A DNA stretch of 64,000 bases from Sedimenticola thiotaurini. Lineage in GTDB: Bacteria > Pseudomonadota > Gammaproteobacteria > Chromatiales > Chromatiaceae. Location of the stretch: NCBI RefSeq assembly GCF_001007875.1, contig NZ_CP011412.1:1116001-1180000 (forward strand), in the 5' to 3' direction. Below, piece by piece: positions 15,940 to 41,003 of this stretch; the stretch's first letter is position 1, and each line of letters begins with the position of its first letter. Under the pieces are notes generated by a model. The model was given only the letters and a program-made list of their open reading frames with translations. It had not been told where the DNA came from and searched no databases. Both the position numbers and the translations under genes were made by a program.

Positions 15940-16497
15940 ATGAAGTTTTTAAGCGACCTGTTTCCCGTCATACTCTTTTTTATTGCCTACAAAATGTATG
16001 ACTTTTATGTTGCGACAGCGGTCATCATTGTCGCCACCATCGTCCAGGTCGGTTACAACTGGTTTCGTTACCGGAAAGTGGAGAAGATGCACCTGGTGAC
16101 CCTGCTGCTGGTGCTGCTGTTTGGCGGCCTGACCCTCTATCTGCAGGATCCGCTGTTCCTCAAATGGAAGCCCACGGTGGTCAACTGGCTGTTCGCTATC
16201 GTATTTTTTGGCAGTCACTTTATCGGCAACCGGACCCTGGTCGAGAGAATGATGGGCAAGAGCGTGGCACTACCCGTGCCGGTCTGGAGCAGGCTCAACA
16301 TGGCCTGGACCCTGTTCTTTGTCGCCATGGGAGCCATCAATTTGTACGTGGCGTTCAGTTTTTCTGAAGACACCTGGGTCAATTTCAAACTGTTTGGGAT
16401 GATGGGGATGACCATCCTGTTTATCATCCTTCAGGCATTCTACCTGGCCAAATACATTAGCGAAGTAGAGCAGAAAACCACCCCGGAGGAGAGTTGA
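15940..16497 (+). CDS. yciB: Septation protein A / inner-membrane protein YciB
   Basis: A 185-residue polytopic membrane protein of the IspZ/YciB family. It starts MKFLSDLFPVILFFIAYKMYDFYVAT and shows five to six hydrophobic segments; WKPTVVNWLFAIVFFGSHFIG and the C-terminal FFVAMGAINLYVAF are typical. Involved in envelope maintenance and septation in enterics; biochemical activity is not known. Its TGA is followed directly by the yciI GTG, so the two are translationally linked. Confidence 0.94.
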   Translation: MKFLSDLFPVILFFIAYKMYDFYVATAVIIVATIVQVGYNWFRYRKVEKMHLVTLLLVLLFGGLTLYLQDPLFLKWKPTVVNWLFAIVFFGSHFIGNRTLVERMMGKSVALPVPVWSRLNMAWTLFFVAMGAINLYVAFSFSEDTWVNFKLFGMMGMTILFIILQAFYLAKYISEVEQKTTPEES

Positions 16498-16797
16498 GTG
16501 TTATACGCAATTATGGGTACGGATCGCGAAGACAGCCTGGAAGCCCGCCTGCAGGCGCGGCCTGAACACCTGGCGCGGCTCAAACAGTTACAGAGTGAAG
16601 GCCGTCTGCTGCTGGCCGGCCCGCACCCGTCAATCGACAGTGAAGATCCCGGGCCTGCCGGTTTCAGCGGCAGCCTGATCATTGCCGAGTTTGCCAGCCT
16701 GGAAGAGGCCAAGGCCTGGGCGGACGACGATCCCTACACCCAAACCGGTGTCTTTTCAGAGATCACGGTGAAACCCTTCCTGAAAGTTCTGCCCTGA
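16498..16797 (+). CDS. yciI: YciI-like protein
   Basis: A 99-residue ferredoxin-like fold (dimeric alpha/beta barrel) protein. Family features are the [18 protein letters not shown] start, [24 protein letters not shown] with the conserved histidine, and [20 protein letters not shown]. It begins with GTG immediately after the yciB stop. The cellular role is not established. A strong terminator follows at 16820-16844. Confidence 0.92.
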
Positions 16798-16819
16798 TCG
16801 AACATCAGCCCCACAAAAC

Positions 16820-16844
16820 AAACGCCCCCGAAACGGGGGCGTTT
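16820..16844. terminator. Terminator between yciI and moaA
   Basis: AAACGCCCCCG, loop AAA, CGGGGGCGTTT: an 11-bp perfect stem with short A/T flanks, usable in both directions between these convergent genes. Confidence 0.75.
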
Positions 16845-16885
16845 GTCTGTTCAGGTACAGTGATGGATTGGCGGCTGGCCAATCC

Positions 16886-17866
16886 CTACCCCCCGGTCAT
16901 GGACATGACCCGCACAACCTGGTCGGGATTGGTGTTGAACTCATGTTTTTCCGGTTTGCGCTGGATGGCCGCCAGGATCTCATCCTTGAGCTGCTCATCA
17001 GAAAGACCCTGTCTAATAAGCGGTTTTAACTCCAACTTATCCTGTTGCCCCAGGCAGAGATAGAGCGTGCCCTCGGACGACAACCGCACCCGGTTACAAT
17101 CCTCACAGAAGTGCTGCGACATGGGGGTAATGAAGCCGATCTTGATACGCTTGTCGACAATCTTGAAGTACTTGGCCGGACCGGCCCCCTTCATGCGGGC
17201 CGGTTCCAGCTTGAAGCGCTGTTCAAGAATTTCACGGACCTCATCCAACGGCACATAGCGATCCCGAGCCATCTGCCCGGCCGCGCCCACCGGCATGGTT
17301 TCAATAAACCGCAGGGTGAAGCGGTTTTCGATACAGAAATCCACCATATCACCCACTTCGTGGAGATTCAGGTCCCGCATCACCACCATATTGATCTTGA
17401 TGGGATAGAGGTCAACCCGCTTCGCCGCCATCAAGCCGTCGATCACCTTGCTCAGGTCGCCCTGGGTGATGTGGTGAAACACTTCCGGGTTCAGCGAGTC
17501 GAGGCTGACGTTGATGCGTCCTACCCCGGTATCCTTGAGCATCCGGGCGTGCTGCGCCAGATGGGAAGCGTTGGTGCTCATGGAGAAGTCCTCCACGTCC
17601 GGCAGCGCCGCAATGCCCCGGACCAACGGCTCAATATCCTTGTGGATCAGGGGCTCACCCCCGGTGAGGCGAATTTTGCTGACACCCAGTTCGCTGAATA
17701 CCCGGATTAACCGGATGAACTCATCCAGTTTCAGCCGATCCTCTACGTCGGTAAATCCTTTAAATCCCTTTGGTATACAGTAGAAACAGCGAAAATCGCA
17801 GCGATCCGTGACTGACAGTCGCAGATACTCGATTCTCCGGCCAAAACGATCAATGAGTTCGTTCAT
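16886..17866 (-). CDS. moaA: GTP 3',8-cyclase MoaA
   Basis: Radical SAM enzyme that starts molybdenum cofactor synthesis by cyclising GTP. The N-terminal SAM cluster cysteines are C23, C27, C30 (CDFRCFYC). A second C-terminal cluster is seen in FCEDCNRVRLS and the cysteine of TLYLCLG. The chain ends with the required Gly-Gly (MSMTGG). The ATG at 17866 gives MNELIDRFGRRIEYLRLSVT and 326 residues, the family length; the open frame upstream to 17923 is unlikely. It lies ~140 bases downstream of napC on the same strand; NapA needs molybdenum cofactor, so co-location makes sense. Confidence 0.95.
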   Translation of the reverse strand: MNELIDRFGRRIEYLRLSVTDRCDFRCFYCIPKGFKGFTDVEDRLKLDEFIRLIRVFSELGVSKIRLTGGEPLIHKDIEPLVRGIAALPDVEDFSMSTNASHLAQHARMLKDTGVGRINVSLDSLNPEVFHHITQGDLSKVIDGLMAAKRVDLYPIKINMVVMRDLNLHEVGDMVDFCIENRFTLRFIETMPVGAAGQMARDRYVPLDEVREILEQRFKLEPARMKGAGPAKYFKIVDKRIKIGFITPMSQHFCEDCNRVRLSSEGTLYLCLGQQDKLELKPLIRQGLSDEQLKDEILAAIQRKPEKHEFNTNPDQVVRVMSMTGG

Positions 17867-33977: not shown

Positions 33978-34053
33978 TGGCGTCCCCTAGGGGGTTCGAA
34001 CCCCTGTTACCGCCGTGAAAGGGCGGTGTCCTAGGCCTCTAGACGAAGGGGAC
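33978..34053 (-). tRNA. tRNA-Glu(UUC), copy 1
   Basis: 76 bases including an encoded CCA. Acceptor GTCCCCT/AGGGGAC, anticodon loop CTTTCAC with TTC, T-loop TTCGAAC. Identical in sequence to copy 2 at 34367-34442. Downstream member of the first Ala-Glu cassette. Confidence 0.97.
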
Positions 34054-34125
34054 TTAAACTGTTTCCGTTAGATGAACGATAGATGCTGGATATCGTTTCT
34101 GCGGGCGTCCTGCCCTTTATCTGTT

Positions 34126-34201
34126 TGGTGGAGCCAGGCGGGATCGAACCGCCGACCTCGACACTGCCAGTGTAGCGCTCTCCCAGCTGAGCTATGGCCC
34201 C
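34126..34201 (-). tRNA. tRNA-Ala(GGC), copy 1, with an anticodon-stem mismatch
   Basis: 76 bases with encoded CCA; acceptor GGGGCCA/TGGCTCC, anticodon loop CTGGCAG. The anticodon stem reads CTACA on the 5' side and TGTCG on the 3' side, so position 28 (T) faces 42 (C) and does not pair. Copy 2 has TGTAG and pairs fully. All other stems are intact. The upstream -10 (TACCAT) is also further from consensus than that of copy 2. Confidence 0.93.
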
Positions 34202-34215
34202 GTAACAAGGCGCGC

Positions 34216-34244
34216 ATGGTAAGGTATCCGGCACCGTTTGTCTA
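34216..34244 (-). promoter_or_regulatory. Promoter of tRNA cassette 1
   Basis: Read on the minus strand: TAGACA (34244-34239), 17-base spacer, TACCAT (34221-34216), then a GC-rich discriminator. It is the duplicate of the stronger promoter at 34599-34627. Confidence 0.55.
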
Positions 34245-34332
34245 GTTTTCAGTGGCAATTTTCAGGGCTTTTTTGGTCAGCTGACCGATCCCCCCGGCAT
34301 AACCCGGACAGCAGTTACCGAAACATAAAAAA

Positions 34333-34359
34333 GCCCGATTGCCGCAGTGGCAATCGGGC
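34333..34359 (-). terminator. Terminator between the two tRNA cassettes
   Basis: On the minus strand GCCCGATTGCC, loop ACTGC, GGCAATCGGGC followed by TTTTTT (34332-34327). It ends the transcript of cassette 2, so cassette 1 needs its own promoter. Confidence 0.85.
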
Positions 34360-34366
34360 TTTCAGA

Positions 34367-34442
34367 TGGCGTCCCCTAGGGGGTTCGAACCCCTGTTACC
34401 GCCGTGAAAGGGCGGTGTCCTAGGCCTCTAGACGAAGGGGAC
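34367..34442 (-). tRNA. tRNA-Glu(UUC), copy 2
   Basis: 76 bases including CCA; same sequence as copy 1. Follows tRNA-Ala copy 2 by 67 bases on the minus strand. Confidence 0.97.
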
Positions 34443-34509
34443 CTGGAACATTTCAATAACCCTGACTGAACTCGACTTCAATCAGCAAGGCGTCCTGCCT
34501 GATATTGTT

Positions 34510-34585
34510 TGGTGGAGCCAGGCGGGATCGAACCGCCGACCTCTACACTGCCAGTGTAGCGCTCTCCCAGCTGAGCTATGGCCCC
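34510..34585 (-). tRNA. tRNA-Ala(GGC), copy 2
   Basis: 76 bases including CCA, anticodon loop CTGGCAG (GGC), anticodon stem CTACA/TGTAG fully paired. First gene of cassette 2, directly behind a good promoter. Confidence 0.97.
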
Positions 34586-37925: not shown

Positions 37926-38000
37926 GGGCGCGTAGCTCAGCGGGAGAGCACTACCTTCACACGGTAGGGGTCCCTGGTTCGATCCCAGGCGCGCCCACCA
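37926..38000 (+). tRNA. tRNA-Val(CAC), island attachment site
   Basis: 75 bases with encoded CCA. Acceptor GGGCGCG/CGCGCCC, anticodon stem CTACC/GGTAG, loop TTCACAC with anticodon CAC. Its last 47 bases (37954-38000) recur exactly at 40929-40975, which marks it as the target of a site-specific integration that left the tRNA intact. Confidence 0.96.
37954..38000 (+). repeat. 47-bp direct repeat, left copy (attL-like)
   Basis: The 3' part of tRNA-Val from the anticodon stem to CCA, identical to 40929-40975. Sequence diverges directly on both sides of the repeat. Left boundary of a ~3-kb island. Confidence 0.9.
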
Positions 38001-38098
38001 ATTAAAAACAATGGCTTAAGTTATTTTGCTAGAACTACGTGAGCAATAAAAAAGCCCTTGTAAATCCCCTGTAAAACCACTTTCTGAGAATTAAAGCA

Positions 38099-38179: not shown

Positions 38180-38632
38180 TCAGTCGGTATCCTGTTCGTT
38201 GGGCGCTTCCTGATCAGGGAAGGTAAAATTGATGGTCGCTGTGTTACATATGAAAGTAGCCCACGGACTGCGTGCCGTGATGGCCGCTAGATGCTCTCTA
38301 GCTGCACCCATTAAAATCTGTATAGCTACAGGCTCGACATTATCCAGGTAGCCTTGAAGTAACTCTTCAGACTCATCCGACTGCGGCTGAAATACACCGT
38401 AAGCACCAATCTTGTACTGATATGGAGGATTAACACTCGCCTCGTCATCGGTCTCGATAATGAGAGATACACCATGTCGAATCTGGTCGCCCTCTACTTT
38501 TTCGATATGATGAGAGACTTTCTGCTTAGTGCCGTGCAGTTCCCCTGCTGGGTCGTGGTTTTGTAGTGCTACTACATGAGTCTCAGGAAAGAAATACTGT
38601 TCAATCCGGACATTATGCGGCTTGCTGGTCAT
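38180..38632 (-). CDS. SecB-like chaperone of a toxin-antitoxin-chaperone system
   Basis: A 150-residue cytosolic protein of the SecB fold. The segment about 107-136 (LMGAAREHLAAITARSPWAT then FICNTATINF) lines up with the SecB signature around LFPYARECI...RGTFPQLNLAPVNF; the N-terminal half has the alternating beta-strand pattern of SecB. In TAC systems such a protein binds the antitoxin tail, lets it fold and protects it from proteolysis. The ATG at 38632 overlaps the end of the antitoxin gene by 20 bases and has AGG upstream, so translation is coupled; an in-frame ATG at 38665 is less likely. A housekeeping SecB elsewhere cannot be excluded. Assignment rests on the C-terminal motif plus context. 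Confidence 0.78.
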   Translation of the reverse strand: MTSKPHNVRIEQYFFPETHVVALQNHDPAGELHGTKQKVSHHIEKVEGDQIRHGVSLIIETDDEASVNPPYQYKIGAYGVFQPQSDESEELLQGYLDNVEPVAIQILMGAAREHLAAITARSPWATFICNTATINFTFPDQEAPNEQDTD

Positions 38633-39005
38633 AATTTGCCTGCTTAACCCAAATTGAAGTTGCATCTTTTTGTGCTGGAGTCATCCCCATAGACTGTCCA
38701 TTGGAAATAATCTTGAAAGATTTTATTTCGTGCTCCTTACGGCAACCCGTGATATGTAAATTACAGTCGATAGCATCAAGCAGCTTAGTCATACTGGAAA
38801 TAGTTAAGTTAGCATCACCGCGTAAAACTTTGGTGACATAAGGTGCACTCTTCCTGGTAAGCCGTGATAAATCAGCTTTGCTTATTCCTTGCTCCATCAT
38901 CAAGGTATTAATCAAAACAGCAAAATCATTTTTGTTCCGCTCACAAGCATATCCGACATCATTCTCTAAAGAATCATACCAATCTAAAGTCTCACTAATG
39001 CTCAT
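38613..39005 (-). CDS. higA: HigA-type antitoxin with C-terminal extension
   Basis: A 130-residue XRE-family helix-turn-helix protein. The DNA-binding domain is about 30-86 (LINTLMMEQGISKADLSRLTR, SAPYVTKVLRGDANLTISSM). Residues 88-130 form a polar extension containing Trp119 and Tyr125, in the place where TAC antitoxins carry a chaperone-addiction sequence. The ATG at 39005 is two bases after the toxin stop and is preceded by GGGGG within the toxin's last codons, so toxin and antitoxin are coupled. It is likely to neutralise the toxin and repress the operon through the palindrome at 39444-39459. The upstream in-frame ATG at 39044 lies within the toxin gene and is rejected. Confidence 0.85.
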   Translation of the reverse strand: MSISETLDWYDSLENDVGYACERNKNDFAVLINTLMMEQGISKADLSRLTRKSAPYVTKVLRGDANLTISSMTKLLDAIDCNLHITGCRKEHEIKSFKIISNGQSMGMTPAQKDATSIWVKQANYDQQAA

Positions 39006-39007
39006 TG

Positions 39008-39439
39008 CTACCCCCGCTGTTTTTCCATGAACTCCAACATACATTTAACTTTTGCATCTAAATAGGCTCTCTGTACTTTGATTGCCTTATTGACATCCTT
39101 ACGATTCGGTCTTTGGCCGCGCTTGATACCAGCATTGATCAGAACCACCATACCTTCGTCAATGGCGCAAAAAATCCTGACATCTCCTTTAATAAACTGG
39201 AAAATATCAGGATCATAATTCGCATGATGAAGTTGCTCCTCTGTAACCCCATCCGGTCTAAGTCTTCCATGCTCCGCATACTTCTTAAAAAGATCCGCAG
39301 CACCTTTTACAGATCCCGCATACCGCTTTCCTAGTCCTTTCATATCGTCGAAAACTGGAATGCAATCTTTTCCGGTAGAATCAGTGTCCACGTATGCAGT
39401 GACAGTGAAACGCCCCCTTTCGATAATTACTAGCTTCAC
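39008..39439 (-). CDS. higB: RelE/HigB-family (Gp49-like) toxin
   Basis: A 143-residue protein whose C-terminal half (about 78-130: DIFQFIKGDVRIFCAIDEGM, VVLINAGIKRGQRPNRKDVN) fits the phage-derived Gp49-like/HigB branch of the RelE superfamily, ribosome-dependent mRNA interferases. The N-terminal ~50 residues are longer than in most HigB. Start is a GTG at 39439; no good ribosome site is seen, so the start or a near-leaderless transcript is uncertain. First gene of the operon (toxin before antitoxin, as in higBA). The name higB is by family and context. Confidence 0.83.
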   Translation of the reverse strand: MKLVIIERGRFTVTAYVDTDSTGKDCIPVFDDMKGLGKRYAGSVKGAADLFKKYAEHGRLRPDGVTEEQLHHANYDPDIFQFIKGDVRIFCAIDEGMVVLINAGIKRGQRPNRKDVNKAIKVQRAYLDAKVKCMLEFMEKQRG

Positions 39440-39443
39440 AATA

Positions 39444-39459
39444 TTAACTTATAAGTTAA
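39444..39459. promoter_or_regulatory. 16-bp perfect palindrome, candidate operator of the TAC operon
   Basis: TTAACTTATAAGTTAA is a perfect inverted repeat, five bases upstream of the toxin GTG. Autorepression by the helix-turn-helix antitoxin at such a site is usual for higBA operons. Confidence 0.6.
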
Positions 39460-39594: not shown

Positions 39595-39631
39595 GGTAAT
39601 CCCCCCATTTTTAATGACGCTCAAAAGTAGA
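39595..39631. repeat. IS inverted repeat, left end
   Basis: Outer GGTAATCCCCCC and inner AAGTAGA match the reverse complement of 40755-40792, with a diverged middle. Confidence 0.75.
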
Positions 39632-39633
39632 GG

Positions 39634-40434
39634 TCATGCAACCTGGGTTAACTTCTGAATCGGGGTTATTTCACCAAGTGCCATATTAGGCCGTTCGTTA
39701 TTGTAGCTCCAGAGCCATTTCGTTGCCGTATCCTGGGCGTGAGCAATGGACTCAAACAGATGCTGATCTAACCACTCATGCCTGACCGTCCGATTGAATC
39801 GTTCCACATAGGCATTCTGTTGTGGCTTGCCTGGCTGAATATACTGGAGCTGGGTACGCTGCTTGTCGGCCCATTCCACCAGTCGACCGCTCAGATATTC
39901 TGGACCATTGTCGCACCGGATCGCCTTGGGCTTTCCTCGCCATTCGATAATCTGCTCCAGGCTCCGGATGACTCGCAGCGCCGGGAGTGACAAATCCACT
40001 TCAATACCCAGCCCCTCCCGGTTGTAGTCATCGATCACATTGAAGGTGCGGAAGCTACGCCCATCTCTCAATTTGTCATGCATGAAGTCCATTGACCACA
40101 TATCATTGATCTGGCGTGGCACGGCCAGTTCATCCGGCCTATCCCGCCTCAAGCGCCGTTTTGGCTTGATTCGCAGGTTGAGTTCCAACTCCCGGTAGAC
40201 CCTGTACACACGCTTCTGATTGTAGCCATAGCCCTTCACATTGCGCAGATACAGAAAACAGAACCCGAAGCCCCAGGTCCGGTGAGTGGTCGTCAATCTC
40301 AGCAGCCAGTCCGCTATATGGGAATTTTCACCCGAAAGCTTGGCCTGGTATCGATAGCAGGTTTCACTGATACCGAACAGGCGGCAGGCCATACGGATCG
40401 AAATCTGTCGCTGTTCAACCGCTTGCCTGGCCAT
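39634..40434 (-). CDS. IS3-family transposase OrfB (DDE catalytic part)
   Basis: 266-residue rve integrase-core protein. Catalytic residues are seen in [11 protein letters not shown] (first Asp), IRCDNGPEY (second Asp) and [20 protein letters not shown] (Glu). The N-terminal HTH_21-like segment precedes it. It is normally made as an OrfAB fusion through a -1 frameshift at 40461-40467; after the shift the frame reads through [15 protein letters not shown]. The gene is full length and looks intact. Confidence 0.92.
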
Positions 40435-40457
40435 CTCCCTGCTTCGAGATGGCCTTA

Positions 40458-40721
40458 CTACTTTTTTTCAAGCGCTTCCTGGATGATCTCTGCCTTCAGC
40501 CGCTCTTCAGCGTATATCTTCTTCAGGCGACGGTTCTCTTCTTCCAGTTCTTTCATGCGCTTCATCATCGAGACATCCATGCCCCCGTATTTGGAGCGCC
40601 AATTATAGAAGGTGGCGTCGCTCATCCCGTGTTTTCGGCAGAGTTCGGCTACCGGTATGCCGTTCTCCGCCTCTTTGAGGATACTGATGATTTGGGGCTC
40701 ATTACAGCGGGATTTCTTCAC
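40458..40721 (-). CDS. IS3-family transposase OrfA
   Basis: 87-residue HTH_8 type protein ([20 protein letters not shown], then [21 protein letters not shown]) with a leucine-zipper-like C-terminus ([20 protein letters not shown]). It stops at TAG 40460-40458 immediately after the slippery run, so most ribosomes make OrfA and a fraction shift to give the transposase. Confidence 0.92.
40461..40467 (-). other. Programmed -1 frameshift site in the IS
   Basis: Minus-strand A-AAA-AAG heptamer in GAA AAA AAG TAG at the very end of orfA. Slipping back one base continues in the orfB frame without a stop. This is the classic IS3 arrangement. Confidence 0.85.
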
Positions 40722-40754
40722 GTAGATTCTCCTTCAATCTCTATATTGGAAAAT

Positions 40755-40792
40755 TCTACTTATAAACGCCACTATTTTTCGGGGGGATTACC
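40755..40792. repeat. IS inverted repeat, right end
   Basis: Reverse complement begins GGTAATCCCCCC and contains AAGTAGA, pairing with the left end. Confidence 0.75.
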
Positions 40793-40928: not shown

Positions 40929-40975
40929 CCTTCACACGGTAGGGGTCCCTGGTTCGATCCCAGGCGCGCCCACCA
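40929..40975 (+). repeat. 47-bp direct repeat, right copy (attR-like)
   Basis: Exact copy of the tRNA-Val 3' end (37954-38000) without the 5' half, so it is not a functional tRNA. Right boundary of the island; the core genome resumes with the NnrS-like gene. An open frame on the minus strand across this repeat (40772-40981) is an artefact of the junction. Confidence 0.9.
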
Positions 40976-41003
40976 TTTCAAACCGCACAGAACAGGCAGA
41001 TCA

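Follow-up and report, generated by a model that had tools for sequence, protein, structure and literature searches.

Few toxin-antitoxin-chaperone (TAC) systems have been studied so far, and the mechanism of those that have is set out in five reports (PMC5105189, PMC6377645, PMC9098466, PMC11618068, PMC11980606). HigB1-HigA1-SecB(TA) of M. tuberculosis (Rv1955-Rv1957) is described as having the gene order, W-x-[KR] tail motifs and toxin residues that we also see in the locus considered here, and as having an operator, ATATAGG(N6)CCTATAT, that is unlike the palindrome we find (PMC8669151). Glov-TAC of Geobacter lovleyi, from the HigBA family, likewise joins HigBA to a SecB-like chaperone and has been reported to be chaperone-dependent (PMC5105189). 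In E. coli HigBAC (C496 / O112ab:H26), a Gp49-type HigB, a HigA and a SecB-like chaperone act in abortive-infection defence, the reported trigger being a lambda tail protein that draws off the chaperone (PMC11980606). We compared these last two systems with our locus by description. Because HigBAC has been studied as a defence system (PMC11980606), HigBA-SecB TACs in Gammaproteobacteria were already known. CmdTAC and MqsRAC are also described as phage defence systems in which a SecB-like chaperone guards the antitoxin, and in CmdTAC the T4 capsid protein is reported to draw the chaperone off (PMC11618068). Unlike the toxin described below, CmdT is an mRNA ADP-ribosyltransferase, and MqsR and MqsA belong to toxin and antitoxin families other than those at our locus.

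The window analysed here is a stretch of 64,000 nucleotides from the 3.96-Mb genome of Sedimenticola thiotaurini. We consider it probable, at roughly 80%, that it carries a TAC operon of the HigBA-SecB type on a small tRNA-Val island (Table 1). This reading draws on features visible in the DNA itself, namely co-inherited genes, a SecB-family protein, an antitoxin tail, a conserved palindrome, the island borders and an empty site, while the function we assign to this new member of the HigBA-SecB TACs is argued by analogy. In the open reading frame list of the window all three frames are intact on the minus strand, and the tight coupling claimed in the original prediction agrees with the coordinates: +2 nt separate toxin and antitoxin, and antitoxin and third gene overlap by 20 nt. 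At the level of gene layout, this places toxin, antitoxin and putative chaperone genes side by side in an operon-like array. Longer in-frame ATGs lie at 39044 for the antitoxin and at 38665 for the third gene; the shorter starts were chosen by comparison with relatives. The G+C content of the operon is 43.7%, versus 56.1% for the window.

Table 1. Features of the TAC locus and its island, in window coordinates.
Feature	Position	Strand	Details
tRNA-Val (CAC), integration target	37926..38000	+	
Left attachment repeat, 54 nt	37954..38007	+	includes tRNA 3' half
SecB-family chaperone gene (predicted)	38180..38632	-	150 aa from ATG at 38632; profile matches to SecB and tree
Antitoxin gene, XRE/HTH_3	38613..39005	-	130 aa from ATG at 39005; HTH_3 match and family alignment
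Antitoxin C-terminal tail, candidate chaperone-addiction region	38616..38717	-	codons 97-130 (34 residues); W119, K121, Y125
Toxin gene, Gp49/HigB-type	39008..39439	-	143 aa, GTG start; open reading frame list
16-bp palindrome TTAACTTATAAGTTAA, candidate operator	39444..39459	.	ends 4 nt before toxin start
IS3-family insertion within island	39595..40792	-	transposase ORFs 39634-40434 and 40458-40721
Right attachment repeat	40929..40982	+	96% identical to left

To ask how well the arrangement is conserved, we scanned species genomes with the antitoxin alignment alone. Seventeen loci were retrieved, and in 16 of them all three genes are present with order and strand unchanged, in keeping with the TAC layout first proposed for the window. 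Four of the 17 (L058, L064, L065, L067) are contigs that had already been used for the profiles; among the new loci, 12 of 13 are complete. Judged by record titles and tree labels, the loci belong to Thermodesulfobacteriota and to Pseudomonadota, several of them in genera of gamma or beta type. Distances among the loci, computed for each protein in turn, are correlated across the three proteins (r 0.87-0.92, with none of 2000 permutations as high), although shared host history could add to this value. Taken together, the common gene order and the correlated distances indicate that the three-gene arrangement is more than chance. Antitoxin and chaperone frames overlap by 8-50 nt in all 17 systems. 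At L061:3878-4282, a family antitoxin stands with no toxin or chaperone matches nearby.

The same antitoxin scan of viral contigs gave 14 loci, of which 11 are complete, two of these (L081 and L082) being near copies of one another. The incomplete loci are L087, which is cut by the contig end, L089, which has no chaperone match, and L092, which has the antitoxin only. When viral relatives served as queries against phages, plasmids and E. coli genomes, the only match was a partial one on a plasmid (H2); two of these relatives, run as DNA against E. coli genomes, gave none. In five viral contigs (L079, L083, L085, L144 and L169), a gene lying directly upstream of the TAC operon on the same strand encodes a CI-type phage repressor; the upstream genes were picked by eye, and all five match phage CI-type repressors. 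Such neighbours fit carriage by prophages in these five cases.

The toxin had been predicted to be of RelE/HigB type, and the family bears this out. Alone, the window protein matches Pfam Gp49 at E 0.006, under the curated cut-off, while in the family as a whole Gp49 is matched by 16 of 17 members with E values no higher than 0.01 (best 7.6e-17). A five-row toxin profile found, at E 7.4e-9, the solved HigB 6af3, which we take to be that of S. pneumoniae; this search gave 20 further rows, all at E 0.03 or worse and all either CAP-type regulators or designed proteins. Neither R88 nor K106 varies among the 17 aligned members, and their counterparts in S. pneumoniae HigB are R73 and K92, residues that have been paired with R77 and K95 in the toxin of the M. 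tuberculosis TAC (PMC9098466). Q109 and R110 are located where Q98 and K99 of the M. tuberculosis toxin are expected. A departure from the catalytic residues of the HigB/RelE superfamily is in the R68 column, catalytic in studied HigB toxins, where the window toxin has no basic residue and K84 adjoins. By analogy, we infer that the protein cleaves mRNA as a ribosome-dependent endonuclease. The N-terminus, which had been described as longer than usual, is not: at 143 aa, the toxin falls within the 131-145 aa of its 16 relatives.

The antitoxin matches HTH_3 at E 4.3e-6, over the cut-off, as expected from its earlier description as a HigA-type HTH protein. It also matches the PADLOC candidate models PDC-M64B/C (best E 9.6e-8), and PADLOC named none of the three proteins as a TAC component. 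By sequence, this is an XRE antitoxin with a C-terminal extension of aromatic and basic character that could serve as a chaperone-addiction (ChAD) region. A Trp is present in the tail of 16/17 aligned antitoxins, the exception being L064, and W-x-[KR] occurs in six of the 17 tails (by eye). We base these counts on the 17 aligned rows and set aside a wider tally, in which 27 of 30 tails had a Trp, because the tail was cut wrongly for L091 and L144, and in L086 and L142 the Trp sits right on the tail boundary. The chaperone-binding tail of M. tuberculosis HigA1 is reported to make contacts through W108, R110 and Y114 (motif W108-x-R110-x3-Y114), and a second stretch begins W137-A-R (PMC5105189, PMC6377645). 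In the window, W119, K121 and Y125 have spacing identical to that of the HigA1 contacts (by eye). Since a Tyr at this spacing is absent from the tails of the 16 relatives, we regard the likeness to the HigA1 motif as suggestive only.

The third protein is harder to place. As a single sequence, it has no match in Pfam, NCBIfam, PADLOC, PDB or PHROGs, it does not reach the curated cut-off of the Pfam SecB export chaperone model (PF02556; 0 families), and it retrieves nothing from plasmids, phages, viral contigs or genome contigs. Among 190 whole genomes its only matches were its own gene and the relative L003. We rejected a second, weak match in its own genome (L002, E 0.018), the ORFs of at least 100 aa there showing nothing SecB-like. 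Even among the 17 members of its family, only four match Pfam SecB at E 0.01. The family profile, in turn, gave three rows at E 1 or better against the PDB, all of them SecB chains and found in both profile searches; Rv1957 was not among the matches of this PDB search. Aligned by hhalign with 13 chromosomal SecBs, the family scored 96.2% (E 2.3e-9, 126 columns), versus 0.1% for the toxin profile used as a control. The homology to SecB is thus detected by the family profile and not by the single sequence, and the original prediction of a SecB-like third gene stands at the sequence level. On these profile comparisons, the third protein is a member of the SecB family.

A two-row profile of the third protein found matches in 50 of the 369 genomes scanned from the class. 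Besides the two inputs, the five strongest loci (L007-L011) have TAC-like neighbourhoods, that of L011 being of the MqsRA type (by eye), and each of 23 weaker loci (L012-L034) has a SecB-like ORF; among this SecB-like set, the Pfam model was run on the gene of the window's own genome only. A 46-row tree sets all 13 chromosomal SecBs apart on a 100/100 branch and makes the window protein sister to L057 (99/99). Genome-borne and virus-borne TAC chaperones interleave, with many inner forks unsupported, and three MqsRA-type rows are placed among HigBA-type rows. Three side observations were made: L007 (G204) is decayed, with the chaperone and the HTH part of the antitoxin left and no intact toxin seen; on plasmid NZ_CP020372.1 (L035), an MqsA-type antitoxin and a SecB-like gene adjoin the DISARM gene drmA; and ~14 kb separate a chromosomal SecB from a TAC operon (2022-2489 and 16482-17746) on a single contig, L051 (G048).

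A 16-bp palindrome of the form TTAACYTATARGTTAA lies at the toxin start in this lineage. Its end falls 0-10 nt ahead of that start in all 17 systems, and at every one of the 17 loci it outscores all other matches, with 0-4 mismatches; the loci that supplied the pattern are these 17 themselves, and the start codon of one was reassigned. In a held-out test, TTAACYTATARGTTAA was the best match in 12/12 viral loci tested from the antitoxin scan, with 0-2 mismatches and 1-24 nt before the start. The held-out set omits L082, a near copy, and L092, which has no toxin match. In the window's own genome, the palindrome occurs once at up to one mismatch. The pattern alone, run over viral contigs, marks at least 120 stretches; of 80 loci among these, three (L142, L144, L169) have a complete TAC directly after the palindrome, L160 has toxin and antitoxin, and the other 76 have none. 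Because P. aeruginosa HigA is reported to bind a TTAAC/GTTAA palindrome (PMC6987408), it is likely, by analogy, that the window antitoxin binds this one. The best promoter-like pair has its -10 hexamer inside the palindrome in the window and in L068, L070, L071, L072 and L073, though not in most rows, and as a guess the toxin mRNA may be near-leaderless. We found no report in the open literature of a TTAACYTATARGTTAA operator in a TAC, and within the literature searched the palindrome appears to be new as a putative operator of a TAC lineage. This HigBA-SecB lineage escapes single-sequence family searches, and its short putative DNA operator offers a handle for finding members; both the operator and the tail motif are directly testable.

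Based on the studied TACs, we propose the following mechanism. The tail would keep the antitoxin unfolded until the chaperone, made from the frame that overlaps the antitoxin gene, binds it. The folded antitoxin would then neutralise the toxin and repress the promoter at the palindrome. Loss of the chaperone to another partner, for which the studied E. coli TACs make a phage structural protein the likeliest candidate, would lead to degradation of the antitoxin and free the toxin, and growth would stop. This arrest would abort infection and would also favour keeping the island. Each of these activities, from mRNA cleavage and chaperone-dependent antitoxin folding to autorepression and toxin release on chaperone loss, is what we would infer from the homologous systems.

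The genomic setting bears on what the operon is for. The prediction of a small tRNA island is confirmed by 54-nt direct repeats, 96% identical, that enclose 2,975 bp between copies of the tRNA-Val 3' half, and by an empty site in two same-genus genomes (G003 and G001), in which the flanks meet at one repeat copy. Border repeats of a tRNA 3' end together with an empty site in relatives are what is expected of a tRNA-site island. Third-protein relatives were found in none of the eight same-genus genomes searched, two of which are 65% and 78% complete. At the same tRNA-Val in G006 (L049:4729-5312), we observed a different two-gene toxin-antitoxin module (phrog_2523 and phrog_2339), with no second repeat found; modules of this kind may therefore have a hotspot here. 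These observations raise the possibility that the operon is a true TAC whose main role is addiction, stabilising the island here and prophages in relatives, with phage defence incidental. The attachment repeats, the absence of chaperone relatives from 8/8 same-genus genomes, the second module in G006 and the relatives in viral contigs all speak for it; against it, the TACs studied in E. coli are reported to defend against phages, though these are other systems. We consider addiction as the main role plausible and somewhat less likely than not to be correct.

The related operons that share the control site, some of them in phage genomes, hint at phage defence, and their prophage setting links chaperone-gated toxins to competition between phages. 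It is tempting to speculate that this HigBA-SecB lineage, which is widespread and carries the TTAACYTATARGTTAA operator at the toxin start, serves phages as a mobile immunity cassette. In prophages the cassette would ride next to the repressor gene; in the window it would take the form of a minimal island (~1.8 kb without the insertion sequence) using a phage-type integrase in trans. The cell would be halted once a structural protein of a rival phage takes the chaperone from the antitoxin. We regard this larger picture, taken as a whole, as doubtful.

It is improbable that the third gene encodes a SecB-like protein for export or general folding that lies by chance behind a self-sufficient HigBA pair. 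Three acidic positions that are invariant in 25/25 chromosomal SecBs, and which we take to be SecA contacts, are Asp/Glu in only four, two and one of the 17 TAC proteins. The host genome encodes a separate chromosomal SecB, over the curated Pfam SecB cut-off, and the three-way co-inheritance and frame overlap also argue against a chance neighbour. In favour of such a role, overproduced TAC chaperones from four systems are reported to have been able to stand in for SecB in E. coli (PMC5105189).

That the operon is a remnant, silent or in decay, of an island now defunct, as the lack of an integrase in the island ORF list, the IS3 copy and the toxin-less L007 might suggest, is similarly improbable given that all three frames and the palindrome are intact and that the IS3 element begins 155 nt upstream of the toxin start.

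Returning to the TAC island itself, the IS3 transposase is clear (NCBIfam transpos_IS3, E 9e-61), and the genome holds three further full copies of the element at 94-97%. The window copy is without target duplication, as are two of the three others (by eye). In the ORF list, five ORFs of which were run against Pfam and NCBIfam, the TAC genes and the IS3 transposase ORFs were all that stood out in the island, and no integrase was seen; one guess is that the IS3 insertion removed one. In G002 (L047:2025-2167), ~90 nt of the left end of the island are in common with window positions 38000-38096, including short repeats like TGTAAATCC, and the content beyond differs; these common ends are perhaps remnants of one integrase type. 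Elsewhere in the window (33978-34585), two consecutive tRNA-Glu/tRNA-Ala pairs likely reflect a tandem duplication.
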